IMG/VR virus record: IMGVR_UViG_3300044974_000721
Coordinates: 1-64,000 of that record
Strand: one strand, 5' to 3'
Origin: a virus
Length of the DNA stretch: 64,000 nucleotides
Shown here: in pieces, positions 8,335 to 37,781 of the stretch
Position numbering within the stretch: position 1 is the stretch's first letter
How the letters are laid out: every line of letters starts with the position of its first letter
Notes under the pieces: generated by a model
The model's database searches: none
The model's input: the letters and a program-made list of their open reading frames with translations, nothing else
Told to the model about the DNA's origin: nothing
Program-made: the position numbers and the translations under genes

Positions 8335-8349
8335 GGTTGGTATAAGAGG

Positions 8350-8888: not shown

Positions 8889-11800
8889 TTAAATGTAGTT
8901 ATCGTATTGTTGGTCTAATTCCGACATGTTTTCATCGTATAAATTTAATGTACCTAGTATTTGGTTTCTTTCAGTATTAGATACACCCTCTTCAGAAAAG
9001 TCTACTTGAGCATAATAGTAAGAGTCATTATTATCATAGACAATCTCGCTCATAGAGGATATAACAGCTTCTATATAGTTGTTAGTAGCAGCTTGAGAAG
9101 ACTGTCGTATTTGGTCAATAACTCTAAGGGCTATATTGCTTTCGGTATAATCTTCAGTAGGTAATCCAGCCTGGCTATTAGTCATAAGACCAGCAAGACC
9201 TAATCCTATTATACCCCCAGCGAACTCGGCTAAGAATCTACCTTTAACAGTACTAGAGAAACCGTCTTGTAAGTTATCAAAATAATCAACGGCTTGTTTA
9301 GTTAGAGCCTGGGACGCTTTAAATATACCTTCAAAAGCTACACCAGCAGCCAGCCCTGCTGTAAAGCTATCATTATATTTAAGTTGATTACGAATTCTAG
9401 TTACTTGCATTGACTGCATAACCCTATGAGATTTTAGTAATTCCTCTGGGCTTGGAGTAGAAAGGGGGCTTGCCATAATACCCATAGCTGTAGGAGACCC
9501 TACCATAGACTGGTACATATCTAGAGTGCCTGCTGCTATTTGCTCTACTGAGTCTCCAGGGTTTTGCATAATAGCAAATAATGCAGGAATAGCTAGTATA
9601 CTAAGACCTTCTGACATGCTATTAATTCTAGATGCGGTTTTTCCTAGTACTACTCTTGCTTGTTCATTCTGTTCTTTTTGTACTTGTTTAGTGTGCGTGG
9701 CTATTGTTTGCTCTAATTTATTTACTAGGTCCTCTGCACCACTATCCACACCTAAATTTCTGAATTCATTTATTAACGCCTGTCTATTGTCTTGTGGTCT
9801 AAACAACATATTTTCTAGTTCTAGTCCCCTTTCCCTTAATCTTTTTTCATCTTCATCTGATAAATCTGGGCTTCTTAACTTCTCTCCTATATCTATCATC
9901 TCTGTAGTTAACTGCTGAACAGCGTAACTAAATGCATTTGTCTCAGCTGCGTAATCTACAGATGATTTATTTAAATGCTTAATTGTAGATAAATCTTGCT
10001 TAAACTCTGTATACTTAGCTATTTCTTTGTCTAAGTCTACTCCTGTAGTGGTTTGTTTTTTAAGTTCATGCGCTCTAGAAACTAACTTTTCTATCTGTAA
10101 AGACTGCCTATCAAATTCTGATAATTTATCTGACTCAGACAAACTCTCATCTATACTTGAAAACGTAAGGGCATCTAGATTGGCTATTAAGTCTGTATCA
10201 CCTTGGGCATAATTTAGTTTAGTATGTTCTTTAGCTAGTTGTAACCTCTGGTCAAAAGTAGCTTTATGTGTACCTGCTTGTTTATAAGCGTTGGTAAACT
10301 CTGTTTCATCTACACCAGTGGGTGTAATTAAATTAGGAGAGAATAAACTGTCTGCATTATTAATACCGGCTAAGCTATATAGTAAGTTATCATACATAGA
10401 GGAATCGCCGGCTGCATTTTTAACATCAGCTGTTTGTTTTAGTTCTGCTAGTTTAGGAATAATAGTAGCAAAGAATCCTGTAAATAAATTAAGGTCTGTA
10501 TGCCCACTACCCAGTCTATTAGCAAACGCTGTGCTATATAACCCTAGTTCCTGTTCTAATTGGTCAACTCCAGGTAGGTTATTAGCTTTCATATTCTGTA
10601 TAGTGCTATGTAACCCTTTTAGTTGCTGTAACCCCTTTATAAAAGACTCAGAATCCTGTTCTATGTTTTTGGAGATTAGCGCCTCCATTGCCGTTTGATA
10701 AACTATACCTTCGTCAGACTTACCTCCTGCACTTAACGCTTTTATAGCAGTTGATACTGCATCCGAACGTTCTGTTAATTTTTTATAATATTCCTCTCTA
10801 AATTCTTCAGCATCTTTATCTCCGCTCGTATACTCTCTAAATAAAGATTTTTCTTTTAGGTAGTCCTCTGTAATTTTATTTAGTTTAGTATCTCTATCAC
10901 TTAGGATATTTCCTTCTCTATCTAACCCGTAATACTCTAGTAATTCATAGCCTTTATTAAACTGTTCTTTCCTGTTAGCTAAGTCTACAGAAACGTTGCT
11001 CACAGTATATTTTAGTTGAAAGTCTGAGTACAAATTTGCTATGTATTTAGTTATAAAATCATCACTAGTATAGCCTTCGTATTCTTTGCTAGATTGTGCA
11101 CTCTTTAAAGCAGTGGATAAGGGGCTATTATTTATAAGGTCATCTGCTGTCTTATATTTACCTGATAAGTAATCAGTTACTATCTGTAAAGCTGCAAAGG
11201 ACCTTAAAGTTGATAGCGCTTCATCATCTTTATACATTTGAGCTGCTATTAGAGGTTCTCCTACTTTTGTGGAGAGAAATCTGTTTAATAGCTCTTCTCT
11301 GAATTTATTAGCATTCTTAGGGTCGTTTGCTTCTTCTATTGCTCTAATAATACTTGTTAACCCTTGGAGCTTTTCTGCTTTTTCTTTATCTATATTGTAT
11401 TCCGAGGCTATTTTCGGGTCAATTGTATATGTATCAACTGCTTCTAAGAGAGACTTAGGCCCACTTTTTCCAGAAGTGTCTCCTTTTCTTTCCTTAGGTT
11501 TTAATCCTGCGTCTCTAATAAACTGTTGTGTTGTAGTTACAAACCGCATAGCTACTTCGATGTCTTTTTCAGCTTGCAGCTGGGCTATCTTTGCTTTTGC
11601 TGAATACTGCCCAGTTAGTAACTGTTCTTTTAAGTTATTCAGCTCTGCTATAGGTACAGAAGGTATACTTAAAGTTGAAGAAGCACTTGTTTGAGCCATA
11701 ATTCCAGCAGCTAAAGCTAACCTGTAAGATTTATCTTCTTTGCTGCTTAAAGCTTTTAAAGCTCCAATATTAGCCATTTGCAATGCTATTAGAGGTACTA

Positions 11801-14800
11801 CTGTGTTATACGTAGTTCCTAGTAATCCCCCGGTTGACGTTCCTATAATAGCTTGCAGCTCTTGTAGTGTTTGGTCGTTAATTATGCTTCCCTGGGCTGA
11901 TTTTAGTATTTTACTTGTAATTGTACTAGTAGCAGCTCCTAATTGCGCTACAGTAGCTATTTCAGTTTGTACATATTTAACTAAGGGAGCCATTAAGTCT
12001 TCCTGAGTAGCTTTATTGCTTTTTGCTTGTATTATAGTACGCTGTTGTCTTGTTAAGACTTCTAGTAAGTTTTGCTCTTCCGCAGTAAGATCACTTTCCT
12101 CTTTACCTAAGAAAGTTAGATATTGCTGTAGGGTTCTAAACTCTTCGCTATCACGAGATACACCTTCAAACCCAGAGAGTAACCTACGGCTTATATCATT
12201 TGAATGAATAGAGTTTAGTCTAGCTTGTTGTTGTGCTTCTGTAGTACCCTCGGTTAAAAATCTTAAACTAGAAAGGAATTTTGGAGATAATTGTTGAGTG
12301 GCAGTCATTACTGAACCTACATGGTCAGCAGCTCCTATAGTGTCTCTAAACTGTTTTACAAACGTTTGAAGATGTATATCTTTTATAAATTTGCTATCTC
12401 CTATTAGTTCTTCAGGTAATGCTGAGTAAACTCTAGCAAAAGTTCTAATACCTTTTTTAGCTCTGCTAACTGCGTTATTTCTAATAAGCTCAAACTGTTT
12501 TAGAGCTTCATTATGCTGACGCGTTAGGTTTTCTAATTTATGTTCTTCTTCTTGTATATCTTGTCTTCTAACTTCTTGAGCCAACTCTTTAGCTGTATCA
12601 TTATTTTCTATTCTTGGCTGATGCTTTAGACTAATTCTATCTTGTAGTTCTTTTATCTTTTGACTTTGTTCTTTTATTCTTCTTGTTAGTACCGCCATTT
12701 GTGTTACAGCGCTCTGGAAACTATCCCCGTCGTTATCTCCTAGTTGGGTATAATGCGTACCTAAAGCCGACATTAAAACTAAAGTGTTACTGCCCTCCTC
12801 CGCCGGGCTAATATTAGTATTTAATATATCTGCCCTCTCTCTTAACTCTTCTACTGTGCGTGTCTCATTTAACAAGGTTCCTGTCTCGGACAATAAACTA
12901 GTACCGCTAGGAGACCCCGCCCTCAGCGTTGTAGCAAACGTTATGCTTCCTTTTATTTTGTTCTTGTTCTGTTCATAACTTCTTTTAGCTTCCTCTTGTG
13001 TCTCTGCTACTCTTGCAGCGTTCATGCCCTCTGCGTCTGTAGCTAAGACTAACTTTAATATAAAATCATTTATCTGGTCTACAGATAGGTATTTGTTATT
13101 TGTATACCTTGCTATCTGATCTATATGACTCTTTGTTATCTCTAAGTCTACTGGCATTGCTGCCGTTTCTCCTCCTCTCAAATAATATTCTCTCTTTATT
13201 AGATTGTATTCCTCAACCCCTTTGTTTAAAATTTCTTCTCCTACTTCCCTTCTAAATAATGTTTCACTATTTATAACTCCTCTGTCTATTGTTGTATCTA
13301 TGCTGCTAGTCAGCATACGCGCTACTGCTTTTTCTTCATTTGTCAGCTCGCTATACTTCTTATATTTTGTGTAAGTCGTTTCTTTATATCTTTCTCTTTG
13401 TACTTTTAACTCTGCTTTTTGCTGCTCTAGCCTAGCTCTTTCAACATCTCTACCCTCCTCTAACCTGGCTATTTCTCTCTCTTTATCTCTTATTTCTTTA
13501 CTTAATCTTTTATACTCTTTGTAGTTACTGTATCTTACTTCTTTTCTGTATAAGCTTTTAAGGTCTCTCTTAGAACGTCTTAGGGTACTTAACTGACTTC
13601 TAATATCATTTATTCTTTCTGTCTCATCTGCAATCTCGCCCCTTTCAGAATCTAACTGAATATTAAGTGCTTCTATCCTGCGCTCCATAGCGCTTTCTAA
13701 TCTAGTAATAGTTTGGTTGAGTTGGGCAATTTGTTGCTCATACCTATTAATAACTGCTTGCCTTCTATTTATACGTTCTTTATAACTTTGTTCTTCTTGT
13801 TGTTGAGCTAGTAACAGATTTGATCTTCTAGTATCAGCAGTTAAAGTAAAGTCATTTATTCTAGCTTGACGATTCTCAAGTAGACGTTGTCTAATCTGTT
13901 GGTCATTATAGGTTCCTTCTTGGATTAAGCTAGCCCTTAAGATTGTATTTTCTTGCTCTATACTTCTTAATAACGATCTTCTATCTTGTCTTATTTGATT
14001 GTTTAAGTCTGTTGTTTGCCTTCTATGTCGTGTAGACATATCGCGCTCTAAGGTAGATATCGTATTTTGAGATCTTGTAATCAAAGACCTTATATTGGCC
14101 GACTTTTGTAGCTTATCTTCTATATTTCCTATATAAAGGGCTAAGATATCTGTGTTAGTATTTAAATTTAGTTGTGATTCTAATCTTCTTATATTACCTT
14201 CTATTTCTTCTATGAGGTATATTTGACTTTGAGCAGCGTTTGGTAGTCTACTTGGAAAGCGTCCAGAAGGTGTTTCTATAAAACTATTAGTTTGTTGCTC
14301 AGCACTTAATTGAGCATAATTTCTTCGGGCTATATTTAATAATTCTCTTTGCGTTAGCAGTTCTTGTTGTAGTGTACTATCAAGGTTTGTTATCTGTTCT
14401 ATATTTGATATACTTACGTTATATTCTCGTCTATATGTTTGTAGCTCTTGATGTCTTAACTCAAGTTGTCTTATATTACCCTGTATTTCTTCTATAAGGT
14501 ATATATAACTTTGAGCAGCGTTTGGTAGTCTACTTGGAAAGCGTCCAGAAGGTGTTTCTATAAAACTATTAGTTTGTTGCTCAGCAGTTAATTGAGCATA
14601 ATTTCTTCTTGCTATATTTAATAACCTTCTTTGCCTTACCAGTTCTGCATTTGTAGCTTCTACATTTAGTGGTCCTGTATTTAAAGATCTTAGGTTGTTT
14701 TTTATAGTTTGTAACTGTGAGATTAATGAAGATTGTGATGCAGCATAACTTAAAATATCAGCTAGCTGCTGTTCTCTTCTTTCTTGTCTTAATCTTGGAT

Positions 14801-17800
14801 TAAGTATACTAGGTTGCGAGCGCGTATTTCTTAGATTACGTATAACGGTTAGAGAATTAGAGTAGACGTTAACATTATCCTGTCTTGTTTGTATTTCTAG
14901 GTTACGCTGGTCTCTATTAGCTATGCCTGTGTTTAGTCTTTCTGTAGTATCTGTAATTTGTTGTTCTATACTACTTAACTCTTCTCTATATTGTTGTGCT
15001 GTTTTTGTATCATCCCCAGTATAATATCTTATAGAGTTATTAGTAATAGAAGACCCTGGTTGTTTCTTTGCTTCTAATAGTATAGTTTCTGTTCTTTCTT
15101 CCCCCGTAGTAGTAATACGTTTTAGTTTTACATTATTCTGGTCATCTTTATCAATTATTACGTAGTTATTATCAGAGTAAGCTGAACTTCCATAAACAAA
15201 TGACTTTAGTGCATCATCTGAGTCAATAAGAGTATTTAATGCATGAAGGTCATAGTTTTTACCTCTTAGTCTTCTTTCTACACTCCCTTTAGCTTCCTTA
15301 AACTTTTTATTAAGTTTAAAGGACACATCTGAGATGTTTTTAGTTAATATTTCAGGTGTATTAGTATCCTGTGAAATTTCCTCAAATTTAGACCCAGCGG
15401 CTATTTCATGGCTACTTAGAAGAAAAGAACTCATAGCAATAGAGCTAAATCCCACCAATTTTAGTCTATCTGAACCCGCCTGCCGTATTGTTTCTTGGTT
15501 ATTTATTAGGTCCATTGTTGTAGCTTGAGTCTGCAGCAAAAGCGTTTGAAGATTCTCATATTGCTTTTTCTCTTCAGCACTTATAGTAGGCAGATTATCT
15601 AAGCTAGCCGGATTTAATAGTTGATGGTCTGCTATTCTTTTTAGTAGAGGTGCTGTTTCTTCTAGCGCGTATCTTAGTCTGATTTGTGCTACTAGTGCAT
15701 CATGGCTTTGACCTTGAAATACTAAAGATAATTTTTCCAGGAGGTCTAATCCCAGTAAAATTCCATGTGTACCTGTTTGTTTGCTATCTGGTGAATAGAA
15801 CACATCATATTTACCAGATTCTGTTGTACTCAACCCTATATAAAGCGCGGGTAATGTTACCAACTGTGTATTAGTCACACTCTTATATAGCGATTCTGCT
15901 CTTTCTCTTTGTTCTCTATTTAATGAGCTTGTGCTACTTATATTCTTTAGTAGTTTACTATATGACCTAAGACTTTCAAGACTTTGATTTACATATTCTG
16001 TCCCTATTGATGTACCTTTAGCACTTTCTATTCTACTTCTTAATTGTTCTCTATATACTGTAAATACTCCCGCGTCTTCTAGAAGCTCTTTAGTTAAAAA
16101 CCTATCTATATTAGTAGCAGTTGCTCCACTATCATATAAGGATGTAAAAAGACTTACATAATATTCTTCAGGTACAGATACAGTTCCTGTTCGTTTTTGA
16201 TGCTGCAGAGCAAATTTAACCAATGTATTTGTATCAGTACTTGTTGGAAACAAGGTTCTAAAATAGGTAATTAATCGAAGTGTTCCTTGAATCTTGCTTT
16301 TTTGCGCATCATCAGATAACAATGTAGCAAGCATTATATCTTCTATCTTGCTTAATCTAAGGCTTGTGCTGTCTTCTTGTGCCTCACTTGCTCTGTTACT
16401 TAATAGTCCTAGTAATATATTTTTAGTATTGCTTAGTTCTGATAAAGCCACGTTGGATTTTTCGTTGTCCCCCAGAACATAATTTAGGATAGCCTCTTTT
16501 GCTAAGCTAGTAGTTTTGTTATCTGTATTAACAATTGTAGGTAAACCTTTATCTGCTTGTTCTGTATAAGCTGTTGTAAATTTAGATATAAATTCTAAAG
16601 GACTACCAGTTTGGCCAATAAGAGCTAAGTTATTAGCTTGTATTTTGTATTTAGTTTTAGCTTTTGTAGGGTCAATAAGTTCTCCTTCTACAATACTACC
16701 AAGCATGAGTACAGCCTGTTGTATATTAAGAATGTCTTCGCTTTCTTTATGTCTATCTGTGTACAAACCCATTTGGTTTTTAGTCAGTTCGTACATATAC
16801 TGACCTTCCATTTTGGTCATATTTTGCATACCAATAGCCACTGCGATACGGCTAGGCATTTGCTCTACACCAAACTCTAAAAAGCGGTTTAAACGTAAGA
16901 TTGTATCAAGCTGTCGAAGTCCTAACTGTAACTCTCTTATCTTTGTTTTTCTTTTGTCTTCTTCTAATGTTTGTATCTCTTCTGGAGTAGGTAAGTGTAT
17001 ATTTAACACTGAACCTATTACCTGTACAGATTGTATTAAAGCTAATACTGCAGCTTTATTTTTACTTTCTAAATTATTATTTGAGTAGTAATGTTCTATG
17101 TTATTCCCTTGTAGGAAGTACCCAGCGTTTATCTCACTTATAGATTTACCTGTTAATCTGTCATTTATATTTATGTTTCTAAACAAGTCTTGAGAGGCTT
17201 TAGTAAAGAAGGCTAATACACTAGCTGTTCTAGTAGATTCATCATTAAATATAAACCTGTTGTTATAGTTAAAGCTATTAGGGTTACTTCTAGCAGTTTC
17301 AAAAAGTTTAATTGACTGTGTTCTTATATGAGAAAGTGCTGCCGAATCACCGCGTAAAGCTGCCGCTACAGTTTTTATTAGAGCCTGAGATATATCTGGG
17401 GTATCTTTAGCTAGTTCTTGTTTTACATATGCAGGTAGAGCTAAACTAGAAAGTTCTCCAAATACTGTAAACGTAGGTTCAAGATTATCAGTTTTAGTAG
17501 CTGTATCTCCCAGTTTACGTTTAGGTAATTTCATTTTTTTAGCATAGTCGTGCTTTGCTAATATATCAAGTGCTTTTGCAGCTTGAGTCTTACTATCCTG
17601 CTGATTTAAAGATGTAGCGAGTAATTGCATTATAGTATCACTCCCCGCTTTTTCACCCAGCATCATTAAAGCTAAGCCTTCTGCTAATGCTTTGGACCCA
17701 TCTGTTTTTTTTATTTCTTTCAGGAAAGATGAGTCTTTATCCTCTATAAGCATTAACCCCTGCTCAAAGTTAAACCCTTTTATTTGTGACGGGGAGAGAA

Positions 17801-20800
17801 TAGCGTATATGTCTTGCTTTCTTATTCTTTGTGGTAGTAATGTATCTAGTTTTCTTTCTTCTTGTTCTTTTTTAAGTTGCTCGAATATTCTGCTTTCTAA
17901 TAAGTACGCTGGACCTTTACTTGTATCACTCCCAGGACGTAAGTTTGATACCATATCGCGCCGCGTGGCTGTTGTTAACTCTAATTGTATACTTGATGCC
18001 CCTGAGTGATATATATAAGGATTCTCTACTAAAAAGCTTACCCCTCTATATTCCCTTGCTGATGTTGCTGGTAACTTAAATTTTATATACTCTTGTCTTC
18101 TTCTCTGCCCATCTTGTTTTGTATACTGGCTAAACGCATTTATTGTAAAATACCCGGCGTTTATATCTATATCTCCTATGCGCCTTACACTCTTTAACCT
18201 ATCTAATATATTATTACTACTACTACTAACAGGTGAGTAAACACCTCCTTTATAGTAAAAACTATTAGTATCTCCTCTAAAGTTTACACTTTCGTAAGTA
18301 AGTCCTAACAACTTATTTATTACGTTAAGCTGTCTTCTATCCAGGTTTCTTACATCTTCAAACCTAGTAATAGTCGTCGCATCTCCGTACTCTCCAAACT
18401 TTGCTATTAAGTTTCTTAGCGTGTTTGATAATTTACTACTTTCTAAACCTAATCTACTAGCAATATCATCCGCACTTATATTGCTTATTAATAAATTAGC
18501 TACATTTACAGTCTCTTGTTTTAGAGCTGTTTTTACGTTTTCATTTACTATTAGCTGGTCTTTATGTATAAAGCTTGTTCCTTGCTTTAAATGCTTTTCA
18601 ATGTCTGCTTTAAAACTAGTGTTTCCTAATAAATTAGCGCTGTCTAGACTAATGTTAGTCACATGATATTGTACATATTCTGGTCTTGTCTTATTATTTC
18701 CTGCTTCGTATCTAAACCCTTCATTAACATACGAAAAGTCAGACATAGTTGATATGCCGATGGACTGTAGAACGCGCTTGGGGGCTTTACCTCCAAGAAA
18801 CCCTCTAACTAGTAGTTGGGAGTTAGCGTAATCTACCTTTAGCTTCTGTAGTATAGTAACAGCATCCTCTCCTGTGTTTAACCTATCCTGTATAATTCTA
18901 AATTGGTGCGGCGCTAAGCTCGTAAGAAACGTATTATCAATTAGCGTCTCAGGATTACTTAACACATCTCCTATGGCGCTGTCTGCCCCTAAAGTATCTG
19001 CTGCTAATCCAAATTTATACGACGCTGATTCTACCGGTCTTGTACTCTGTAAGTTTCTCATCCGTTCTGGAATCTGTTCTGTTACTCTATATGGAAAGTA
19101 CATAACAGTCTCATTATCTATATCCCCAGATACATTCTTATTTATACTGAATAACTCATTAGTCATTGCATCTACTATGCGGGTTATTTCTTCTTTTGTA
19201 TAGCCTTGGTTCTTTAGGCTTCTTCTTACTTGGTTTTTGTACTCTTTCTTGTTTATAACCGACAACCCTCTCATAGTCTGCATCATTAAATGCGTCTGTC
19301 TTATAGTTACTGCCCCCTCCGCTACGTTATATATCCCACCTAAGTTATCGTATAACTCAGGTTTTATAAACCTCTTGTGGTCAGCTTTTCCTCTTATAAA
19401 TCCTTTCCCATCTACTTCAAGAGTCTCTCCGTGTCTTAAAGGATGAGGGCTTAATAGTAAGTCTAGGGTACCTTGTTCTTCAGCTAAGTCATATATATCA
19501 TCGTTTATACCATATACAGGTCTTTTAAACATAGCTTGGCCCATAGAGTATCTTAACTCATGCGGCTGCATAAAAGGACTTGTTATTTGGTTAAACATTT
19601 CTGTTTTGATTCTTCTTATTCTATTGTCGTAAAAGACTTGCGCCCTTCTGTCACTTTTTACCATTAACCTCTGTATATCAGAAAACATAGTAGCGGTTTC
19701 TTTATTAGACCTAGTATTTTCTATAATATCTAATAGCTCTGCTACTATTGCATCTCCTTGATTTCTAGCATCTAACGGTTTTTTAAAGAAGTCCGCTGCT
19801 GTTTTATCCTTGTACAAATTACTTATAAGGTCTCCTCTAGCTTTTAGATGAGAAGGATTCATACCGGGGACAGCATATACTTTATCATACGTTTTTAGCC
19901 TATTAAGAGTGTCTGTAAGTATTTTTTGTTTTAGGTTATTATTAATAGATTGAGATTGTAATTGCATAAGAAGAGCGCTAAAATTCTTCTCTCTTGATGT
20001 AAGAGAAGGAAAATGCTTATTCATTTCAAGGCTAAGAATTGTCCCTAATATTTTTTGTAGTGCAGTTGTTTTATCTGCAGCAGTCATAATATTAAGCGCT
20101 TGGTTTATAGACCCCCGCGTAGCTTCAAAAGTCAACATATGTCTCATAGTGTTAACCAAGCCTCCTACTACCTCAAGAGCATTAAAGGTTTGTTGTCCTC
20201 TTGGGTTTATTGTTTTATCTCCTAACACTTTCAGCGCGCGGCTACTGTTATTCACAAATGTCATGCCGTTTATTACTCTTCCTGTTTTTGATAAGTACGC
20301 TACCGGCTCTACTTGTCCACTTATCCCTCTCTCTTCTCCTAATGTTACCGAAAAACTATACCCCGGTAACTCCCCATTTAATGACCCTATACTTATATCT
20401 ACACCTATACGCTTATAAGTATTTGGGTCGTAGATTATTGTGTAAGAAAACTCTTTGCCTTTAGGAGTACCTTCAGTAGAGTATACTCCCCCCATTTTTT
20501 TTAGAATACTAATTAGTTCATCTGTTTGTTGTTGACTTCCTCTTCTCTGTGTAGGAGAACTAAGATTAGCTCCTCTGTTTAACTTAGAAAAGTTACTCAC
20601 ACCGTAGTAGTAATAGTCTGCTATTTCTTGTTGTTCTTTATCTGTTAAGCCCCCTACTGTGTTTTTGTCTAACATCATAAACACTTCAAGGTTATCTTTA
20701 TAAGCTTTATAGCTTAAGTTGCTAGAACCAATACCATATTGTAAAAGTTTTAGGTCTTGCGCATTACTATCATCTATAACTGCAAAGCTTTTACTATGCG

Positions 20801-22340
20801 CAAATCTAGTAGGTAAAATAGAAAAGGATTTATGTTCTAACAATACCTTCATAGTATTCTTAGCTAAGTGATATAAATCATCACCATCTGCTTTTGTTCT
20901 AGCTAAATCTTCATTGTAGTATCTATCTAACAAAGGGAATAAACCTTGGCTATCCCCATAACTTTTACCCGCTACTCCTATACTTAACCTATCTTGCTCT
21001 GCTAGTCTTCTAAAGACCTTAAGCATTTCTTTTCTTATATTCTTGTTATACTCTGAGTATGCGGCATCTTTAGGCCCATCTTTCTTGCCCCCAAAGCCTG
21101 ATTTTGATTGGATAAATAGGCTCTCTACATATTGCATAGAGATAACTACTTTAGATTTCTCCCCGTCTTTACTTAATTTTCTTAATTTATTTAGCAGTTC
21201 AGTTTGTATTTCATCTCTAATAAATACAGTTCTATTAGGACCTACTCCGCTTCTTTTAGATTGAAAACTACGTTTAATATCTTCAACAAACTCTTTAGGG
21301 TTTACTAGAGATAGGCTATTTATAACTTCTGACACTTCTAAGGAAGCCAAATTGTATTTAGGGTCAGAAGCTACGGTATATATACTATCCGTTATATCTT
21401 TTATTTCTTGTATTAAGTTATTTCTAATAAAAGTTCTTTTACTGTCTGAGAAGTTATGCGATCTTAAAATAAGCATTTCCTCAGTAGTATGAGCACGGCT
21501 TAAAGTATCTGTAATATTTTGAGTACTAATAAAAGCTATAGAAGCGGTATCAGGAGTATTATAAAGGTAACCAACTTTAGCGTGCAAGCTAAAGTTATTA
21601 AATCCCACAGTAGCGACAGTTTTACCTTGTTCTGTAAGAACTTTAGTAGCAATATCGTTACCTAAAAGGACGTTCATTGCAGTTTTATTTTGATTTTTTA
21701 TAAGTTCTGCTTCATTGCTAATGTCGGGGAGAGGACTTTTAAGATAAGACTGAGTAACTAACTCAACAGAGCCAGGGCGTTGGCTTAAAGCAGAGAAGAC
21801 ACTGTTTTCTTGTACTTGGTACAAGGAGGTACGAAGAGTAAGGTCTTGAGTTTCTTTGCTATTAAAGAGGGAAAATAGGTCGTAGTGTGTAGGTCGAGAA
21901 ACAAAGCCATCTGCGGAATATAGGTCTCTATGAAGTGTGGATGGATTAACAGTTTGAGTATTATTAATAGTGTAAAGAGTAGCTTGCTCCATTTGACTAA
22001 GATAAGAGCCAAGGGAGTTTTGAAGCCTATTTGCTTGATAGTTTACTAAAAGTTCAGTACGCAGGCGAAGTTCAGCTTGGTCGTAATTAAATGACGATTG
22101 AGTCATTTTATTGAAAAAATCGTTGCTGTGTTTTTTAGCAGCAACAAAAGGGTCATTAGCATTTTCATCAAAGCTTGAGAAAAACTGGGTAATAGGGCTA
22201 CCCGCGTTCATATTGTATTCTACAAGGCTTTGGAAAACATCATCTTTAGGGTGGGGTCTGCCCTTTAAAGAGGATTCATCATCAGAAATATCTGACCCAT
22301 CATCGGACAATCCCGATGTAGTTTTTTCTTCTTCGTCCAT
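8889..22340 (-). CDS. Giant 4483-aa virion-type protein with two-motif phospholipase D domain
   Basis: This single reading frame takes up 21% of the window. The N-terminal ~30 residues are acidic. Residues ~130-560 form a PLD-superfamily domain with two HxK motifs: HAK at 253 with STQN 20 residues on, and HSK at 515 with GSSN at 538-541. PLD enzymes use the two HxK motifs as one active site to cut phosphodiester bonds (nuclease or lipase). A long, mostly helical body follows, with a strong coiled-coil stretch at about 2450-3010 that includes a 94-residue duplication. Hydrophobic Gly/Ala-rich segments lie near 4170 and 4330-4380. The sequence is consistent with a tape-measure or ejected virion protein. 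The adjacent divergent chaperone gene supports the tape-measure idea, but the enzyme domain is atypical. There is no Shine-Dalgarno site at the ATG. Function is inferred; the PLD call is from motifs. Confidence 0.85.
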   Translation of the reverse strand: MDEEEKTTSGLSDDGSDISDDESSLKGRPHPKDDVFQSLVEYNMNAGSPITQFFSSFDENANDPFVAAKKHSNDFFNKMTQSSFNYDQAELRLRTELLVNYQANRLQNSLGSYLSQMEQATLYTINNTQTVNPSTLHRDLYSADGFVSRPTHYDLFSLFNSKETQDLTLRTSLYQVQENSVFSALSQRPGSVELVTQSYLKSPLPDISNEAELIKNQNKTAMNVLLGNDIATKVLTEQGKTVATVGFNNFSLHAKVGYLYNTPDTASIAFISTQNITDTLSRAHTTEEMLILRSHNFSDSKRTFIRNNLIQEIKDITDSIYTVASDPKYNLASLEVSEVINSLSLVNPKEFVEDIKRSFQSKRSGVGPNRTVFIRDEIQTELLNKLRKLSKDGEKSKVVISMQYVESLFIQSKSGFGGKKDGPKDAAYSEYNKNIRKEMLKVFRRLAEQDRLSIGVAGKSYGDSQGLFPLLDRYYNEDLARTKADGDDLYHLAKNTMKVLLEHKSFSILPTRFAHSKSFAVIDDSNAQDLKLLQYGIGSSNLSYKAYKDNLEVFMMLDKNTVGGLTDKEQQEIADYYYYGVSNFSKLNRGANLSSPTQRRGSQQQTDELISILKKMGGVYSTEGTPKGKEFSYTIIYDPNTYKRIGVDISIGSLNGELPGYSFSVTLGEERGISGQVEPVAYLSKTGRVINGMTFVNNSSRALKVLGDKTINPRGQQTFNALEVVGGLVNTMRHMLTFEATRGSINQALNIMTAADKTTALQKILGTILSLEMNKHFPSLTSREKNFSALLMQLQSQSINNNLKQKILTDTLNRLKTYDKVYAVPGMNPSHLKARGDLISNLYKDKTAADFFKKPLDARNQGDAIVAELLDIIENTRSNKETATMFSDIQRLMVKSDRRAQVFYDNRIRRIKTEMFNQITSPFMQPHELRYSMGQAMFKRPVYGINDDIYDLAEEQGTLDLLLSPHPLRHGETLEVDGKGFIRGKADHKRFIKPELYDNLGGIYNVAEGAVTIRQTHLMMQTMRGLSVINKKEYKNQVRRSLKNQGYTKEEITRIVDAMTNELFSINKNVSGDIDNETVMYFPYRVTEQIPERMRNLQSTRPVESASYKFGLAADTLGADSAIGDVLSNPETLIDNTFLTSLAPHQFRIIQDRLNTGEDAVTILQKLKVDYANSQLLVRGFLGGKAPKRVLQSIGISTMSDFSYVNEGFRYEAGNNKTRPEYVQYHVTNISLDSANLLGNTSFKADIEKHLKQGTSFIHKDQLIVNENVKTALKQETVNVANLLISNISADDIASRLGLESSKLSNTLRNLIAKFGEYGDATTITRFEDVRNLDRRQLNVINKLLGLTYESVNFRGDTNSFYYKGGVYSPVSSSSNNILDRLKSVRRIGDIDINAGYFTINAFSQYTKQDGQRRRQEYIKFKLPATSAREYRGVSFLVENPYIYHSGASSIQLELTTATRRDMVSNLRPGSDTSKGPAYLLESRIFEQLKKEQEERKLDTLLPQRIRKQDIYAILSPSQIKGFNFEQGLMLIEDKDSSFLKEIKKTDGSKALAEGLALMMLGEKAGSDTIMQLLATSLNQQDSKTQAAKALDILAKHDYAKKMKLPKRKLGDTATKTDNLEPTFTVFGELSSLALPAYVKQELAKDTPDISQALIKTVAAALRGDSAALSHIRTQSIKLFETARSNPNSFNYNNRFIFNDESTRTASVLAFFTKASQDLFRNININDRLTGKSISEINAGYFLQGNNIEHYYSNNNLESKNKAAVLALIQSVQVIGSVLNIHLPTPEEIQTLEEDKRKTKIRELQLGLRQLDTILRLNRFLEFGVEQMPSRIAVAIGMQNMTKMEGQYMYELTKNQMGLYTDRHKESEDILNIQQAVLMLGSIVEGELIDPTKAKTKYKIQANNLALIGQTGSPLEFISKFTTAYTEQADKGLPTIVNTDNKTTSLAKEAILNYVLGDNEKSNVALSELSNTKNILLGLLSNRASEAQEDSTSLRLSKIEDIMLATLLSDDAQKSKIQGTLRLITYFRTLFPTSTDTNTLVKFALQHQKRTGTVSVPEEYYVSLFTSLYDSGATATNIDRFLTKELLEDAGVFTVYREQLRSRIESAKGTSIGTEYVNQSLESLRSYSKLLKNISSTSSLNREQRERAESLYKSVTNTQLVTLPALYIGLSTTESGKYDVFYSPDSKQTGTHGILLGLDLLEKLSLVFQGQSHDALVAQIRLRYALEETAPLLKRIADHQLLNPASLDNLPTISAEEKKQYENLQTLLLQTQATTMDLINNQETIRQAGSDRLKLVGFSSIAMSSFLLSSHEIAAGSKFEEISQDTNTPEILTKNISDVSFKLNKKFKEAKGSVERRLRGKNYDLHALNTLIDSDDALKSFVYGSSAYSDNNYVIIDKDDQNNVKLKRITTTGEERTETILLEAKKQPGSSITNNSIRYYTGDDTKTAQQYREELSSIEQQITDTTERLNTGIANRDQRNLEIQTRQDNVNVYSNSLTVIRNLRNTRSQPSILNPRLRQERREQQLADILSYAASQSSLISQLQTIKNNLRSLNTGPLNVEATNAELVRQRRLLNIARRNYAQLTAEQQTNSFIETPSGRFPSRLPNAAQSYIYLIEEIQGNIRQLELRHQELQTYRREYNVSISNIEQITNLDSTLQQELLTQRELLNIARRNYAQLSAEQQTNSFIETPSGRFPSRLPNAAQSQIYLIEEIEGNIRRLESQLNLNTNTDILALYIGNIEDKLQKSANIRSLITRSQNTISTLERDMSTRHRRQTTDLNNQIRQDRRSLLRSIEQENTILRASLIQEGTYNDQQIRQRLLENRQARINDFTLTADTRRSNLLLAQQQEEQSYKERINRRQAVINRYEQQIAQLNQTITRLESAMERRIEALNIQLDSERGEIADETERINDIRSQLSTLRRSKRDLKSLYRKEVRYSNYKEYKRLSKEIRDKEREIARLEEGRDVERARLEQQKAELKVQRERYKETTYTKYKKYSELTNEEKAVARMLTSSIDTTIDRGVINSETLFRREVGEEILNKGVEEYNLIKREYYLRGGETAAMPVDLEITKSHIDQIARYTNNKYLSVDQINDFILKLVLATDAEGMNAARVAETQEEAKRSYEQNKNKIKGSITFATTLRAGSPSGTSLLSETGTLLNETRTVEELRERADILNTNISPAEEGSNTLVLMSALGTHYTQLGDNDGDSFQSAVTQMAVLTRRIKEQSQKIKELQDRISLKHQPRIENNDTAKELAQEVRRQDIQEEEHKLENLTRQHNEALKQFELIRNNAVSRAKKGIRTFARVYSALPEELIGDSKFIKDIHLQTFVKQFRDTIGAADHVGSVMTATQQLSPKFLSSLRFLTEGTTEAQQQARLNSIHSNDISRRLLSGFEGVSRDSEEFRTLQQYLTFLGKEESDLTAEEQNLLEVLTRQQRTIIQAKSNKATQEDLMAPLVKYVQTEIATVAQLGAATSTITSKILKSAQGSIINDQTLQELQAIIGTSTGGLLGTTYNTVVPLIALQMANIGALKALSSKEDKSYRLALAAGIMAQTSASSTLSIPSVPIAELNNLKEQLLTGQYSAKAKIAQLQAEKDIEVAMRFVTTTQQFIRDAGLKPKERKGDTSGKSGPKSLLEAVDTYTIDPKIASEYNIDKEKAEKLQGLTSIIRAIEEANDPKNANKFREELLNRFLSTKVGEPLIAAQMYKDDEALSTLRSFAALQIVTDYLSGKYKTADDLINNSPLSTALKSAQSSKEYEGYTSDDFITKYIANLYSDFQLKYTVSNVSVDLANRKEQFNKGYELLEYYGLDREGNILSDRDTKLNKITEDYLKEKSLFREYTSGDKDAEEFREEYYKKLTERSDAVSTAIKALSAGGKSDEGIVYQTAMEALISKNIEQDSESFIKGLQQLKGLHSTIQNMKANNLPGVDQLEQELGLYSTAFANRLGSGHTDLNLFTGFFATIIPKLAELKQTADVKNAAGDSSMYDNLLYSLAGINNADSLFSPNLITPTGVDETEFTNAYKQAGTHKATFDQRLQLAKEHTKLNYAQGDTDLIANLDALTFSSIDESLSESDKLSEFDRQSLQIEKLVSRAHELKKQTTTGVDLDKEIAKYTEFKQDLSTIKHLNKSSVDYAAETNAFSYAVQQLTTEMIDIGEKLRSPDLSDEDEKRLRERGLELENMLFRPQDNRQALINEFRNLGVDSGAEDLVNKLEQTIATHTKQVQKEQNEQARVVLGKTASRINSMSEGLSILAIPALFAIMQNPGDSVEQIAAGTLDMYQSMVGSPTAMGIMASPLSTPSPEELLKSHRVMQSMQVTRIRNQLKYNDSFTAGLAAGVAFEGIFKASQALTKQAVDYFDNLQDGFSSTVKGRFLAEFAGGIIGLGLAGLMTNSQAGLPTEDYTESNIALRVIDQIRQSSQAATNNYIEAVISSMSEIVYDNNDSYYYAQVDFSEEGVSNTERNQILGTLNLYDENMSELDQQYDNYI
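14200..14640 (-). repeat. 94-codon duplication inside the giant gene
   Basis: Two nearly identical ~150-bp stretches (around 14200-14345 and 14482-14627) are spaced exactly 282 bp apart (agcagcgtttgg at 14232 and 14514). They encode LLNIARRNYAQL, then a PSGRFPSRLPNAAQS loop, then a coiled-coil heptad region. A 282-bp period keeps frame and adds 94 residues of coiled coil, as expected for growth of a length-setting protein by duplication. Confidence 0.88.
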
Positions 22341-22398: not shown

Positions 22399-23181
22399 AT
22401 GACTGGTAAACAGGTTTTAACAATTGATGCATCTTCAACACCTAACCAGGTATTAACAGTAAGTTTTTACGTACCGGATTATGGTGATTACGTAAAGGTA
22501 AAGAGGTTATATCCTTATCCTACCAGGGATGGAGAGCAAAGACCCCCCTATAGTGTTGAGGAACTATTATTTGCTTATCTTATTGCTGAGATAAAGAAAA
22601 AGGGAAAAGCCTTACCTATAGACCCTCAAGACTTACCCTCTAGACTAGAACCTTTTCCTATAGATGATCGTCAAGCTATCATGCAGGAGTTTATAGCTAC
22701 TTGTTTTCCAGACGATGAGCAACAAAAAACGGCTAGAAACTTTGCGTTGGAGCAACGAAAAGGAGAACCTAAACCCTCTATAGTTGTGCCAGCTTTAATT
22801 ACTCCTAGTGGACGTAGCTACACTTTTGTAAGACCCAATACAGGGGCTCAATGGAAAGCGGACAACAGTTGGAAGAGTGCTTCGGAGAACGGCTGTACTT
22901 TAGATGAATATTTACTAGCAATGTGTTTAACACATGTAGACGGTAAAGAGATAGAACCTCAAAAAGACCCTATTGAGGTTTTTACAGGAGAGAGTATAGA
23001 GTTAGTACAGTTTCTAGCTATGATTTTTGTTAACGCCTTTTTATTAGACGACAAGGCGGCTGAAGAAGCAAAAAAGAGGGGAAAACTGAACAAGCAGAAA
23101 TTGAGAGCCGCATTTGGGAACAGCAAGTCTGCTACACACCGAACAGTAGATACTACACCGACATCAGCTGCACAAGTTTAA
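22399..23181 (+). CDS. Tail assembly chaperone-like protein (short, unshifted form)
   Basis: A 260-aa protein. Its second half (about 130-215) has the usual layout of phage tail assembly chaperones: a GR(S/T)YTF.RP strand, then helices with an E..L..CL..VDGKEI-like stretch, then a DPIEVF / L.F.....FL helix. The first half shows the same pattern more loosely (VKVKRLYPYP, then EELLFAYLIAEI, then a final helix), so the domain seems duplicated. Such chaperones coat the tape-measure protein before the tail tube polymerises. In most tailed phages a short form is made normally and a longer form by a -1 ribosomal slip near the end. That slip site is present here (23070-23076). The gene is divergent from the 4483-aa giant and sits upstream of the portal gene. 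Confidence 0.75.
   Translation: MTGKQVLTIDASSTPNQVLTVSFYVPDYGDYVKVKRLYPYPTRDGEQRPPYSVEELLFAYLIAEIKKKGKALPIDPQDLPSRLEPFPIDDRQAIMQEFIATCFPDDEQQKTARNFALEQRKGEPKPSIVVPALITPSGRSYTFVRPNTGAQWKADNSWKSASENGCTLDEYLLAMCLTHVDGKEIEPQKDPIEVFTGESIELVQFLAMIFVNAFLLDDKAAEEAKKRGKLNKQKLRAAFGNSKSATHRTVDTTPTSAAQV
23070..23076 (+). promoter_or_regulatory. Programmed -1 frameshift site A AAA AAG
   Basis: The heptamer A AAA AAG lies exactly in the zero frame of the chaperone gene (codons gcA AAA AAG at 23068-23076). This is the most slip-prone type of X XXY YYZ site in bacteria (as in dnaX). The -1 frame is closed by TGA at 23061-23063, six bases upstream of the heptamer, and is then open to 23660. A weak AAGG at 23053-23056 could act as a stimulatory Shine-Dalgarno. 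I did not identify a downstream pseudoknot. Confidence 0.8.
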
Positions 23182-23660
23182 GTATAGGAAAAGGTAATCT
23201 ACCTTATTGCTATTATGTTCCAGCAAAGCCTATGGCTGCTAATATACTAATATCAGGTAGATTATGTATATATCCAAGTTGGTACCCGGTACCAAGAGGG
23301 TTAATGTTTAACACACAGCAAGAGGCAGATAATTTTACCATATCTGAGAGTTTAAGATTGGATGCTGAATCTGAGTACTTTTCTAAAAGATATGATTTAG
23401 GTAGTTTTATTGCTATAAACCAATATATTAAGTTAGATATAACTGATTGGTTAGGACTGAGGGAATCTCCTTTTGTTAAGCATTATGGCATACCTGATTG
23501 TATTAAAAAAGCTTTAGCATTTGAGGTTGCAAATATAGCCCGCGAGCAAGAAAGTAAACGCCGCGAACAAGAACGCCAACTTGAAATGAAAAGTATGGAG
23601 TACTCCAGCCAACTTAAATTCGGCTCTAATAACACTTCTTTTGGTAAGGTATATAATTAA
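23076..23660 (+). CDS. -1 frame extension of the tail assembly chaperone (long form)
   Basis: After a slip at A AAA AAG the ribosome would read 194 more residues, giving a product of about 420 aa (226 + 194). The segment from 23076 to 23231 reads as normal protein (Trp, Tyr, Cys and Pro present), while the competing zero frame is Ser/Thr/Ala low-complexity. The only early ATG of this frame, at 23232 (142 aa), has no Shine-Dalgarno site, which argues against independent initiation. The C-terminal part has a charged helix rich in Glu, Gln and Arg (about residues 95-125 counted from 23232). By analogy with lambda gpG/gpGT this would be the T-like part that recruits tail tube subunits. If no frameshifting occurs, 23232-23660 is a separate unknown gene. 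Confidence 0.72.
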   Translation, partial: EGKTEQAEIESRIWEQQVCYTPNSRYYTDISCTSLSIGKGNLPYCYYVPAKPMAANILISGRLCIYPSWYPVPRGLMFNTQQEADNFTISESLRLDAESEYFSKRYDLGSFIAINQYIKLDITDWLGLRESPFVKHYGIPDCIKKALAFEVANIAREQESKRREQERQLEMKSMEYSSQLKFGSNNTSFGKVYN

Positions 23661-23727: not shown

Positions 23728-25152
23728 ATGACTGATATAGATTATCCAGATAAACGGTCCGCACGGGGCAAATTTACACAACTGGGCATGCATAGTTCTT
23801 TGACTTATGCTCGTAGATTACCTCATGTTAGAATTAGATTGTACGAACGATTAGCTAAACAAGACTTAACTATAAAAACTGCTTTAAACACACTAATAGA
23901 TTATGTAATATCAACTATAGGAGATGTAACACATCCTGATCCAGAAATAGCTGATTTTCTTAACACTAATCTTAGAAGAATGGAAGATACTCTCGGCGTA
24001 AGCTGGAAAAACTGCCTTCGTGTAGCTGAATTTACTAAGTCTTGGGCCGGCTCTTCTGTCTCTGAACTAATGTTTAATCTGGAATTTGGTACTCTTACAT
24101 TAGCTGATATTATAACCTATCACCCCTCTACTATTTTTATATACACAAATAAAAAAGGACGATTAGTAGATGGAGAAGCAACCTGGGATGGTCATAGAAA
24201 GTCTGGCGTATACCAAACTGTTGTAGGCTCAACAACTGCAGAAAAGAAGTTAGACCTTTGGAAAGTTCTTTATTTATGTAATGAACAAGACTTTGGTAAC
24301 TATTATGGTCAATCTCTAGTAGCCCCTTGTTATAAATGGGAACGGTTAAAAAATGCTTTAATTGATTTGATGATGATTTATATGGAGAAAGCTGGTCATA
24401 GGTTAACATGGATAGCCTCTACTAGTTCACCTACAAATCAATCCAGAGTAAATCCGTCTACAGGAGAAGAGGAACCTATAACTACCTTTGACTTACTAAA
24501 AGAGCAGATTGACGCGGATGAGGGAATAAAAAATACGTTAATGCTCCCTTTTAATATAGACGGCGCTAGACCAGAAGTCGGTTCTATAGCTCAAGCGGAC
24601 ATAATAGGAAACACGTATTTAGACGCTATATGGTATGCTGACCAAGAATGCATAAGGCATATAATACCTTATTTTCTTATTTCTGACAGGAGTTTAGGAT
24701 TAAATCCTGAGTCTGTAGAACGAAGGATGGAGGTATTTTATGAGTCTTTAGAAGCTAAACGCGAGCAGTTAACTTCAGCTTTAATTAAGCAAGTATTTAC
24801 ATTGTTAATTCAATGGAATTTTAACCGTGAGTCCGCTAAAACTCCTCCCAGATTTACTAGAATATACTCCGACCGCTCTGAAGACAGAGTAGCAACTATG
24901 CAGGTAATTAAGGGTTTAACAGAAATTGGCTGTTTAAACCCTCGGAATGACGAAGACTGGAAGATGATACGTCAAATGGTAAGATTAGGTGGAAGACAAA
25001 TTGAGCCTGATGATTTGAAGTTTATACAGCAAGTTGTTATTGAACCTAGACAGAAAACCCAATTGTCAGATGTAGGCCCTAATGGCGCTGGTAAACCTGG
25101 TAGGTCTACGGGGTCTACTACTAAACAGATTAAAGCTAGAGATAAACAGTAG
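23728..25152 (+). CDS. Portal protein (Mu gp29-like)
   Basis: A 474-aa protein. The portal forms the ring at one head vertex through which DNA enters and leaves and to which the terminase and tail connect. The sequence shows the layout of the Mu gp29 / DUF935 portal family: a helical N-terminus with an LxxLxxYV segment, a YGQS.....Y.W...K.AL.D....YMEKAG core near residues 195-230, the Y.D...W.....I..IIPYFL segment near 300-320, and a charged C-terminal helix with a basic tail. Length is normal (typically 450-530). It is the first head gene of the plus-strand block. Its TAG stop lies within the left arm of a strong hairpin. No Shine-Dalgarno site is visible before the ATG at 23728. Confidence 0.85.
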   Translation: MTDIDYPDKRSARGKFTQLGMHSSLTYARRLPHVRIRLYERLAKQDLTIKTALNTLIDYVISTIGDVTHPDPEIADFLNTNLRRMEDTLGVSWKNCLRVAEFTKSWAGSSVSELMFNLEFGTLTLADIITYHPSTIFIYTNKKGRLVDGEATWDGHRKSGVYQTVVGSTTAEKKLDLWKVLYLCNEQDFGNYYGQSLVAPCYKWERLKNALIDLMMIYMEKAGHRLTWIASTSSPTNQSRVNPSTGEEEPITTFDLLKEQIDADEGIKNTLMLPFNIDGARPEVGSIAQADIIGNTYLDAIWYADQECIRHIIPYFLISDRSLGLNPESVERRMEVFYESLEAKREQLTSALIKQVFTLLIQWNFNRESAKTPPRFTRIYSDRSEDRVATMQVIKGLTEIGCLNPRNDEDWKMIRQMVRLGGRQIEPDDLKFIQQVVIEPRQKTQLSDVGPNGAGKPGRSTGSTTKQIKARDKQ

Positions 25153-33495: not shown

Positions 33496-36400
33496 ATGCC
33501 TGCACCTAGTATTAAATTTATAGACAGTTTGGTAGGACCCTCTCCTGTAACTAAGCAATGGCGAGACTTAGTTGGAGTTGTAGGTACTTTTAGTAGAGGA
33601 CCCGAAATCCCTATTGAAGTAGAAGACATAAAAACCTTTGCTAGTACTTATGGTGTAGATTCTAGCACCGGGTCTTTATTTGTGCAACAAGCTATGGCTA
33701 ACGGATTAAACCGTTTTGTTGTTGTTAGGTCTTCTGCTAGCTCTAATCCCGCTTCCTCTAAAATTACATTCTCTTCTGAAAGCCCTCAGTTAAGCCCACA
33801 AGTTGGTTTTGTTAGAGTAGGTAACTCCCTTGAACCTTCTAGTCAAAGAACTACTGGTTTTAAACTGGACTTTAATTACATAGGCAAACCAATTGTTACT
33901 AACTCTATCTACACAACTGTAGATACTCGCCGTGGCCAGGTTAATTTGCCAAGTTTTCAAGGTATAGCTCGCTTTAATTTCTTTGTTACTAAAGCAGTTG
34001 AAGGACGCAGCTCTTCTAATATTCTTCACTCTGAATCTAACTTGAACAGCTTAACTATTGAGGTGGATACTGTACACTCCCCCTCTCCTGGTTATATTGT
34101 TGGGTTAATAAAAAAAGATGCCTTAAACTACTCGTTATTAAAAGAGTATATCCGCCCAGGATACTCTTTAACTTTAGTCGCTGAGACACCATCTGATGAC
34201 TTAATTATTGCTTCTAGTATTATAGAAAATTACTCTTTAGACTATGATGCTATCCTGTTACGGTCTGATAAAAAACACAGCCATGTCGTTTGGGGTTTAG
34301 CTCAGGGTATAGAAAATACTACTACTTCCTCTAGTAAACTTAGAGTAGGTAAAATCAGAACTATATTGGGTAATTATAGCTCTCAAGTCTCTACTGGTAC
34401 TCCCTCTGTTGAAACTTCTACTTTTAAAGCTCTCAAACAGATGGTACTTTTAATTGACGGCAAGGAGTATACTCAATCTTCAGCTCCAGTAGCTATAACT
34501 ACTGGAGTATACCCAATCAATACCTCAGTAGCTACTGAAAACTCTACAGGCCAAGACTTACCCTTTAGCTTTGATGACCTTATTGACGAGAGTATTAGTG
34601 AAGCAACTAATTTAGAAAATATTGATGGTACTTCTTTTGAGTTTAGTTTAAGCGGGAGTATTCCCTCTATACAAGGAGGCAGTTCTGTTAGTTTTCTTCC
34701 AGTTGTAGAAACTGTTACTAACTCTAACAATTCTAGTACTTTTACTGTTACTGGTTTGTTTTCTGCTTTGCTTACTAATAGTACTGACGCTAAACGTCTT
34801 CAATCTTCTACTAAAGATAACTACTATATAGTTATAAATAATATTAAGTACTCTATAACACAGGTTGCTGCTTCTACAGATGACCATAAACTAGATATAA
34901 CAGTAGCTGGAACGGTATCAGGTGTTGAAGGTAAAGCTGTTTATATATACTATGAACCTAATACTGCAGACCAATCATTCCAAATAAGGGCGCCTAGGGT
35001 AGCTCAATATGTACTGGGTTACTCCTTTGATAGTCAATCTGGTAGTTTAGGAAATGATTATTTTACTTTAAGACAGGATTACAACACAGGCACCTATAAT
35101 GTTGCTTTAGATAATACTTTCTTGTTAACAGAAATGTCAGCCGGCCGCTACATTTCTTTTGGTTACTTTATCAAACCTTTGTTTGAAACAGAATTTGATA
35201 ATAAGGCTTACCCCCTAAATACCAAAAGCTTTGGTATAGAACTCATATTCGGCGCTCAATCTAATAATATTTCTTCTTTACCTTTAGCTGAGGGAGGATC
35301 TTTTTCTGTTCCTTTTGCTAAAACATCAATTAGTGTCGGTTCCTCTACTAGCACTTCTGCTACCTCTTTTAAAGACGGAGATAGTTTTACTGAAATTGTA
35401 AAAGACTTTGAATCTGCTCTGCGCTCTAATAATATTATTTCTTCTTTGATAAATAACATTACTATAGAAGAATCTATACTTGTTAATGGATTACAGGAAT
35501 TTAGACCTACTATTACTCTTAACTCAACCCATAGTGGAGACCAAGCTAATAGAATTAACTGGTCCTTAACTAGATATACAACTGATGCTAGTACAGTAAC
35601 AGAAGCAAATAAAGTAAAAGATGTTATCTTAGGTAATTCTATAGGTAATTTTGGTAAAATACATTATTTTGAAGGAGGCTACAACGGGTCTCAAGCTGCT
35701 TTTAGAGATTTATACTCGGCTGACGGCACTTTGTTGTGGAGAATAGAAGCTGTTACACCTGGAGTGCACGGAAATAACATTTCTTGCTCAGTTCGTAACC
35801 AAAAAACATCAGGTAAAAATAGCTCTTTTGAGTTGGAAGTTCAAGATCTTAATACTACAGTTATAGCTTCTGACTCTCGCTTTGTTACTACTGTTACTAC
35901 AGCTAATTTAGATTTTACTACCGGACGTAGTTTAGCTTTTAGCACTACTAGCTTAGTTCAAATTTACTTTATGCCTGTAGTTAATTCTTTAGCTAGAAAT
36001 GTAACTATAGATAGTACTCATAAAGTATTTAGATTAGTTCCCCAACGTTTGGCACCACCTTTACAACGTATTAGTTCCGCTTTTTCTGGGGGCGATACCG
36101 GGTTCTCTCGTCAAGGTGCCAGTGTTCTTTCTCTATTCTATTTAAGTAACGGTAGTGATAGTACTCAACAAAACCCCTCTAAACAATCACTAGCTCAAGG
36201 CTTAGTTAAAGGTATTACTTCTTTAGATAGTATTAATCTAGCCTGTTTGGCTCTCCCAGGTATTTACTATGGAGACCCAGATTTTGATGCTGTATTTGAA
36301 AAAGCTATTGATAGTGTTAACAAATCAACACCAGAAAGTGGGTTAAGGTCCGCTGTATTTGAGCTTCCACCTGGTATAGACCCGGATAGAGCTAAGTTAT

Positions 36401-37091: not shown

Positions 37092-37781
37092 ATGGCTAAT
37101 ACTAATAATAGAATTGTTGTTAATAACGCGACTTTAGACCCTATTCAAGGTTTTCACCTAAATGTTTACATGAATGACCAAGCAAACGGTGAGCCAGTTT
37201 TAGTTGGAGGATTTACCTCTTTCCAAAAAACTATGCGTAACGCTACTGAAGCTTATATGCCTTTTGGACGTAAAACCCCCCGCTTGTTAGATGGCGAGTT
37301 TCAGTATGGTTGGGTCCTTGAACGTGGCCTATTAGATATAGGTATATTAAAAGACGTTTTTGGAGTTGACGAAGTTGGACCTGAGTTTAAAGCTGACCCA
37401 ACTCCTCGATTTGTTATAACTGTTGAAGTAAATGCACCAGAATTAGACCAGAAGGGAGTAAATTTTCCTATTAGGGGTAGTCGTAACCAAAGCGGTTCTA
37501 ATAACGGCGGCCGCGCAAGAAATGCTAGCGGAAAATATCAACTTATCTATGCTAAAATTGACTCAGTTACTTTAGGGGCAATGGCAGGTCGCTCTGTAGT
37601 AGCTACTAGATTTGAAGGCCTGTGCGAAAGTATTAGATTTATTGATAATAGCGCAAATAATGGCCTTCTACCAACCTCTAGTGAGAGATTAGGAGTTAAA
37701 GATCCTCAGCTAGATGGCCGTCCTCGTACAGTTGCTACTGGTAATAATGCCGGTACCGGCCAAAATTATTTATATACTTAA
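37092..37781 (+). CDS. Tail tube protein
   Basis: A 229-aa protein directly after the sheath gene. It has the pattern of myovirus tube subunits: an LDPIQGFHLNVY opening strand, a PVLVGGFTSFQKTMRNATEAYMPFGRKTPRLLDGEF beta hairpin region (about residues 35-75), a YGWVLERGLLDIGILKDVFG helix, and closing strands with FEGLCESIRF. Tube subunits stack as hexamer rings and form the inner channel. Slightly longer than the usual 140-200 residues because of a Gly/Asn loop near 130-150. A strong terminator follows, so tube and sheath messages can be made in excess. Confidence 0.85.
   Translation: MANTNNRIVVNNATLDPIQGFHLNVYMNDQANGEPVLVGGFTSFQKTMRNATEAYMPFGRKTPRLLDGEFQYGWVLERGLLDIGILKDVFGVDEVGPEFKADPTPRFVITVEVNAPELDQKGVNFPIRGSRNQSGSNNGGRARNASGKYQLIYAKIDSVTLGAMAGRSVVATRFEGLCESIRFIDNSANNGLLPTSSERLGVKDPQLDGRPRTVATGNNAGTGQNYLYT

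Follow-up and report, generated by a model that had tools for sequence, protein, structure and literature searches.

Directly upstream of the portal gene of a virus related to the cyanophages, an open reading frame (ORF1) is overlapped on the same strand by a second one (ORF2) in the −1 frame. This arrangement raises the question of whether ribosomes cross from ORF1 to ORF2 by programmed frameshifting and, if so, at which site and to what end. The stretch of DNA analyzed here, 64,000 nucleotides and hereafter called the window, comes from a virus record of 71,227 bases. Its capsid protein is 30–32% identical to those of the Microcystis phages Ma-LMM01 (LMM01), MaMV-DC and others, and of the Microcoleus phage My-WqHQDG, so that the virus is distantly related to these cyanophages, which have contractile tails. 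The genes 3' of the ORF1/ORF2 pair include those for a Mu-type portal, a protease and the major capsid protein. The features discussed below are listed in Table 1.

Table 1. Features of the ORF1/ORF2 locus, in window coordinates.
Feature	Position	Strand	Remarks
ORF1	22399–23181	+	260 aa, zero-frame product; ≈110-aa domain in tandem duplication
ORF1 N-terminal domain copy	22399–22758	+	From hhalign of N against C copy and against the single-domain family
ORF1 C-terminal domain copy	22759–23085	+	Ends at the slip sites; from hhalign against the single-domain family
A AAA AAG slippery heptamer, in phase	23070–23076	+	Site of the original prediction
G GGA AAA slippery heptamer, in phase	23079–23085	+	Clade-conserved site (G GGA AAG in relatives)
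Extension in the −1 frame (191 aa if the slip is at G GGA AAA)	23085–23660	+	Open from 23064; first start codon ATG 23232
Predicted frameshift fusion, 420 aa	22399–23660	+	Same length from either slip site
Mu-type portal gene	23728–25152	+	Pfam Portal_Mu, E 1e-16; directly 3' of the pair, position kept in relatives
Giant 4483-aa gene	8889–22340	−	Transcribed away from ORF1; long gene at the same place in 22/22 relatives checked
Tail tube candidate	37092–37781		Based on position after the sheath gene; 14 kb from the ORF1/ORF2 pair

The original prediction placed a −1 slip at the heptamer A AAA AAG, and its description of the local sequence was accurate in most respects. The heptamer is in the phase of ORF1, where it is read as GCA AAA AAG; the last stop before the −1 frame is the TGA at 23061–23063, leaving that frame open from 6 bases before the heptamer to 23660; and the computed fusion has the anticipated length of about 420 residues. 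A second in-phase heptamer, G GGA AAA, located 9 nt 3' of the first, had been overlooked. The products of the two sites would be identical except at residue 227, which is R after a slip at the G site (predicted junction KKRGK|TEQ) and E after a slip at the A site (KK|EGK). The first in-frame start after the slip, ATG 23232, is preceded by GCTATTATGTTCCAGCAAAGCCT, in which there is no match to a Shine–Dalgarno sequence, as the prediction had stated; it is not the only internal ATG, as was also claimed, since others follow in frame at 23304, 23586 and 23595. Predicted −1-frame peptides encoded 5' of ATG 23232 include TEQAEIESR and IWEQQVCYTPNSR. Given the protein and the codon usage, synonymous codon choice would place one strong heptamer in the window overlap by chance with P ≈ 0.21. 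This is not rare, so relatives were needed, and any significance has to come from conservation. Simple folding, limited to pseudoknot-free structures, revealed no consistent downstream stimulatory RNA structure across the loci (z ≈ −0.9 for the window); such structures are frequent but not universal at frameshift sites.

Single-sequence searches with ORF1 and ORF2 returned just one near-identical contig and no match among phage records, and alignment-based searches with either ORF added no further loci. Relatives were collected via searches with the capsid protein, which yielded nine loci and later 62. About 25 distinct relatives, among them LMM01 and My-WqHQDG, had the same pair upstream of the portal, with ORF2 in the −1 frame; in the most divergent loci, L085 and L086, a scan upstream of the portal reported no pair. 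In 22 of 25 loci (counting the window), a strong in-phase heptamer occupied the homologous position, compared to about 4–5 expected from synonymous choice, a descriptive figure that sums the per-locus chances of loci that are related to each other. The heptamer is A AAA AAG or A AAA AAA in most loci, including an in-phase A AAA AAG in MaMV-DC and MaMV-CH01, and of the G GGA AAG type in the window clade and in L056/L065. Imperfect heptamers were found in L025 (7975–8412) and L060 (GCA AAG GAG) and in L080 (GCG AAA AAG), all of which keep the −1 ORF pair; these may be weaker or non-canonical slip sites. Within the close clade (L034/L011, L030/L007, L031/L008, L038/L012 and L033/L010), ORF1 is 55–76% and ORF2 42–68% identical to the window proteins, and ORF2 is in the −1 frame in every member. 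When ORF2 profiles of the window clade and the LMM01 clade were compared, homology was seen over the region of the C-terminal helix (hhalign E 3e-8). Judged by this pattern of conservation, the programmed −1 frameshift is real and ancient.

The conserved site itself is not the same throughout. In the wider family, LMM01 included, the usual site is A AAA AAG, which L040 and L045, in the same half of the tree as the window, also carry. Within the window clade, this heptamer is confined to the window and its (near-)identical contig: the A site reads A AAA AAC in L034, T AAA AAG in L030, T AAA GCA in L038 and GCG AAA AAT in L033, and A AAA AAG is missing from L030/31, L033, L038, L035 and L037. 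G GGA AAR, on the other hand, is present in all seven clade members, as G GGA AAA in the window and as G GGA AAG in the other six. Conservation of A AAA AAG, by which the original prediction proposed to judge its slip site, was thus observed in the wider family, while six other members of the window's own clade have the heptamer missing or altered; relatives of this kind were what the prediction had named as refuting it. Since the clade members without A AAA AAG all carry G GGA AAG 9 nt downstream, the frameshift survives while the conserved site moves. On a capsid tree, a quick tree with some long branches (e.g., L045), the G-site clade forms one supported branch inside the wider A AAA AAG group, with L040 and L045 outside it, and L056/L065 represents a second origin of the G site, giving at least two changes.

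ORF1 could be placed in a family by profile comparison. All 15 single-domain ORF1 members matched phrog_32670, annotated as "unknown function" and corresponding to LMM01 gp081. The L010 and L012 ORF1 sequences matched the same group at E 1e-4 and 2e-4, and the window ORF1 alone at E 0.056. When the window-clade ORF1 profile was aligned to the single-domain family with hhalign, the C-terminal half matched at E 4e-21; the N-terminal copy matched the C-terminal copy at E 7e-19 and the single-domain family at E 6.5e-19. The observed scores of 103–108 compare with at most 17–19 (maximum 19.3) in 100 column-shuffled controls, and an unrelated alignment gave no match. According to these alignments, the window-clade ORF1 is a tandem duplication of a domain of about 110 aa that is single in LMM01 gp081. 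Searches of Pfam, PHROG and PDB gave no functional assignment ("unknown function" in PHROG only), Foldseek with AlphaFold models, which were poor (pLDDT 50 and 62), returned no matches, and hhalign of ORF1 against Mu gp41 and lambda G showed no similarity.

Each of the 22 loci checked has a long gene adjoining the pair, and in 19 this gene is on the opposite strand; in the window this is the 4483-aa giant, and in LMM01 it is gp080. The giant is a candidate tape measure or injected protein; it had no tape measure match, and no tape measure gene was identified in the searches. A PLD-like domain hit (PF13091) was obtained for the giant at E 1.4e-5, below the curated cut-off, for a second giant gene of the window (54196–63999, + strand, at least 3268 aa) at E 1.3e-10, and for the minus-strand giant of the relative L068 at E 2e-9. 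The two PLD-like giants of the window could be injected proteins.

In several relatives, the −1 frame can be followed for a long distance before any start codon is reached. ORF2 lacks an ATG for 100–150 codons in these loci, the first one being codon 130 in L037 and codon 158 in L033, and L063 has no start codon of any kind before the GTG at codon 135 of 176. Over the 94–130 codons between the ORF1 stop and the first in-frame ATG, dN/dS was 0.10 (L035/L037), 0.08 (L063/L025) and 0.07 (L063/L060), ratios that indicate purifying selection on the startless −1 frame in the relatives; the corresponding stretch spans 14–16 codons in pairs involving the window, and 16 in the window itself, which is too short to judge selection alone. 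These data bear on the alternative that ORF2 is a separate gene, translated from ATG 23232 by coupling or reinitiation, with the heptamers present by chance. An in-frame ATG does exist there, and L034, L030 and L038 have ATGs at similar places. However, ATG 23232 has no Shine–Dalgarno sequence, L033, L035, L037, L063, L025, L060 and L045 have no ATG near the equivalent position, the codons preceding the ATG in relatives are under strong protein-level selection, and the heptamer recurs at the homologous position. We rejected translation of ORF2 from its own start on these grounds and consider it highly improbable. A sequencing error or assembly indel that broke a single gene has practically no probability: nothing was found in its favor, and it is refuted by the relatives, in which the same −1 relation is seen in independent contigs from different metagenomes and in the isolates LMM01, MaMV-DC and MaMV-CH01. 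This explanation was likewise rejected. Given a genuine frameshift, it might still take place almost solely at A AAA AAG 23070, with G GGA AAA as a remnant or of minor use. In bacteria, A AAA AAG is an efficient −1 heptamer; the ribosome encounters it before the G site, and it is the heptamer found in LMM01, L040 and L045; moreover, the window alone in its clade combines a strong A site with an altered G site (AAA for AAG). Against this stand the remaining six members of the clade, in which the A site is missing or changed and G GGA AAG is kept throughout, and the costly codon choice at the G site, where the probability of the observed codons under the window's codon usage is about 0.036 (for R-G-K), compared to 0.17 for A-K-K at the A site. 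We regard exclusive use of the A site as unlikely. By sequence comparison, G GGA AAA is most likely the main slip site of the window, A AAA AAG is probably an additional one, and the latter is possibly the stronger of the two. In E. coli, a strong tendency to shift has been described both for G GGA AAG and for A AAG when it follows A AA (PMC5009743). We suggest, tentatively and with more doubt than conviction, that the window is midway in the replacement of one slip site by another: the family-type A AAA AAG and the clade-type G GGA AAR would both drive the −1 shift, with the A site compensating for a G site weakened by the change from AAG to AAA, so that the ratio of short to long product is kept while the site moves.

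The identity of the products can be approached through the mechanism and the neighboring genes. The genes for chaperones of the lambda G/GT type lie between those for the major tail tube protein and the tape measure. The pair described here is instead directly upstream of the portal gene, and the tail tube candidate is 14 kb away. Of the proposed lambda G/GT arrangement, the mechanism thus fits and the gene order does not; the same holds for the designation as a tail assembly chaperone gene, which also finds no support in similarity to Mu gp41 or lambda G. The two discrepancies imply that the pair works like that family without being a demonstrated member of it. The position of the pair directly before the portal, protease and capsid genes and away from the tube gene makes it conceivable that the frameshift is real and that its products are head- or portal-assembly factors. 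The order portal–protease–capsid also follows directly in relatives, and a sequence link to known tail chaperones is absent. On the other side, we know of no head-assembly factor that is made as a short form with a −1 extension, nor of any other type of phage gene with this make-up. Tail chaperones typically consist of a short chaperone with a rare −1 extension, encoded beside the longest gene, and lambda gpG/gpGT is made by low-level −1 shifting (PMC5009743). A long gene is next to the pair in 22 of 22 loci, but in the window it matches no tape measure family and has a weak PLD-like hit. A role in head or portal assembly is in our estimation improbable. Because no other gene type of this kind is known to us and the neighbor is the longest gene, a tail chaperone is the best guess, and by analogy ORF1 and the fusion are likely, if unproven, tail assembly chaperones.

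The frameshift reading would then run as follows. One mRNA would give rise to two proteins. Most ribosomes would stop at the end of ORF1 and release the 260-aa product with its two copies of the small domain, while a minority would slip back by one base within the 16-base stretch A AAA AAG AG G GGA AAA and then read a further 191 codons in the −1 frame, producing the 420-aa fusion. The fusion would be made at a low, fixed ratio to the short form. The G GGA AAA/G heptamer would be the conserved slip site of the clade, and this phage probably uses the upstream A AAA AAG as well. If the parallel with lambda gpG/gpGT holds, the plentiful short form and the scarce fusion would serve as tail assembly chaperones: a partner, for instance the tape measure, would be coated by the short domain, and tail tube subunits would be recruited by the extension. 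The sequences themselves show the overlap and its phase, the heptamers and their conservation, the selection on the startless −1 frame of relatives and the duplication of ORF1, whereas the efficiency of slippage, the dominance of one site, the ratio of the products and the chaperone role are inferred. Taken as a whole, from the two-protein mRNA through the minority slip in this stretch to the lambda-like chaperone role, we consider this reading quite probable.

Comparison with known systems shows how far these likenesses extend. The window shares with lambda gpG/gpGT a short protein and a rare −1 fusion with a common N-terminus, as well as a heptamer of the G GGA AAR type; lambda's own heptamer is reportedly G GGA AAG. 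It differs from lambda in the lack of detectable sequence similarity, the position outside the interval between tube and tape measure, the two-domain ORF1 and the extra A AAA AAG 9 nt upstream. Counterparts are gp081/gp082 of LMM01 and the pairs of other Fukuivirus, which have a homologous ORF1 domain, a −1 ORF2 and an in-phase A AAA AAG and occupy the same location, flanked by the portal gene and by a giant gene on the minus strand. In LMM01, however, ORF1 has a single domain (120 aa), A AAA AAG is the only heptamer, and the genes are annotated as hypothetical with no frameshift. The LMM01 frameshift locus is L026:9991–10784 (NC_008562, 68445–69238), with L093 and L094 as relatives, and the shift at A AAA AAG is unannotated. 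My-WqHQDG likewise has a −1 pair before the portal (ORFs 7975–8412 and 8490–8867), but its heptamer is imperfect (GCA AAG GAG CTC) and its long upstream gene is on the same strand. In phage Mu, to which the portal and protease genes of the window are similar, the gp41 chaperone gene lies between tube and tape measure, unlike the pair in the window, and gp41 has no similarity to ORF1.

Frameshifting of this −1 type is textbook knowledge. As far as we have checked, the following is new: the gene model of the LMM01 group is corrected, ORF1 of the window clade is recognized as duplicated, and the slip site is double, with a switch between heptamers that can be traced. None of the LMM01-type records checked annotates the frameshift. 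As had been expected of ordinary gene calling, the pair is split: the downstream half is annotated only from a late GTG in LMM01 and is not annotated as a gene in MaMV-DC. In the papers found on LMM01 and frameshifting, the titles and opening lines of abstracts contained nothing on this gene, and the main text of the MaMV-DH01 genome paper mentions neither frameshift, chaperone nor tape measure. The results correct the gene model, and suggest a likely identity, for a pair that is called hypothetical, or is half missed, in the checked LMM01-type phages of bloom-forming cyanobacteria. They also add a family of frameshifted genes that includes a duplicated ORF1 and in which a change between A AAA AAG and G GGA AAG occurred at least twice on the tree, a natural series for studying how phages hold a protein ratio constant when the site of slippage is altered.

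Two further observations were made on this group of viruses. The tail sheath protein of the window (33496–37050, + strand) is unusually long, 1184 aa compared to 774 in LMM01, and the sheath families match its C-terminal part. One capsid relative, L089 (34% identity), lies within the genome assembly of the cyanobacterium Elainella saxicola (contig LUGL01000101.1), and may be a prophage or a contaminating phage contig.
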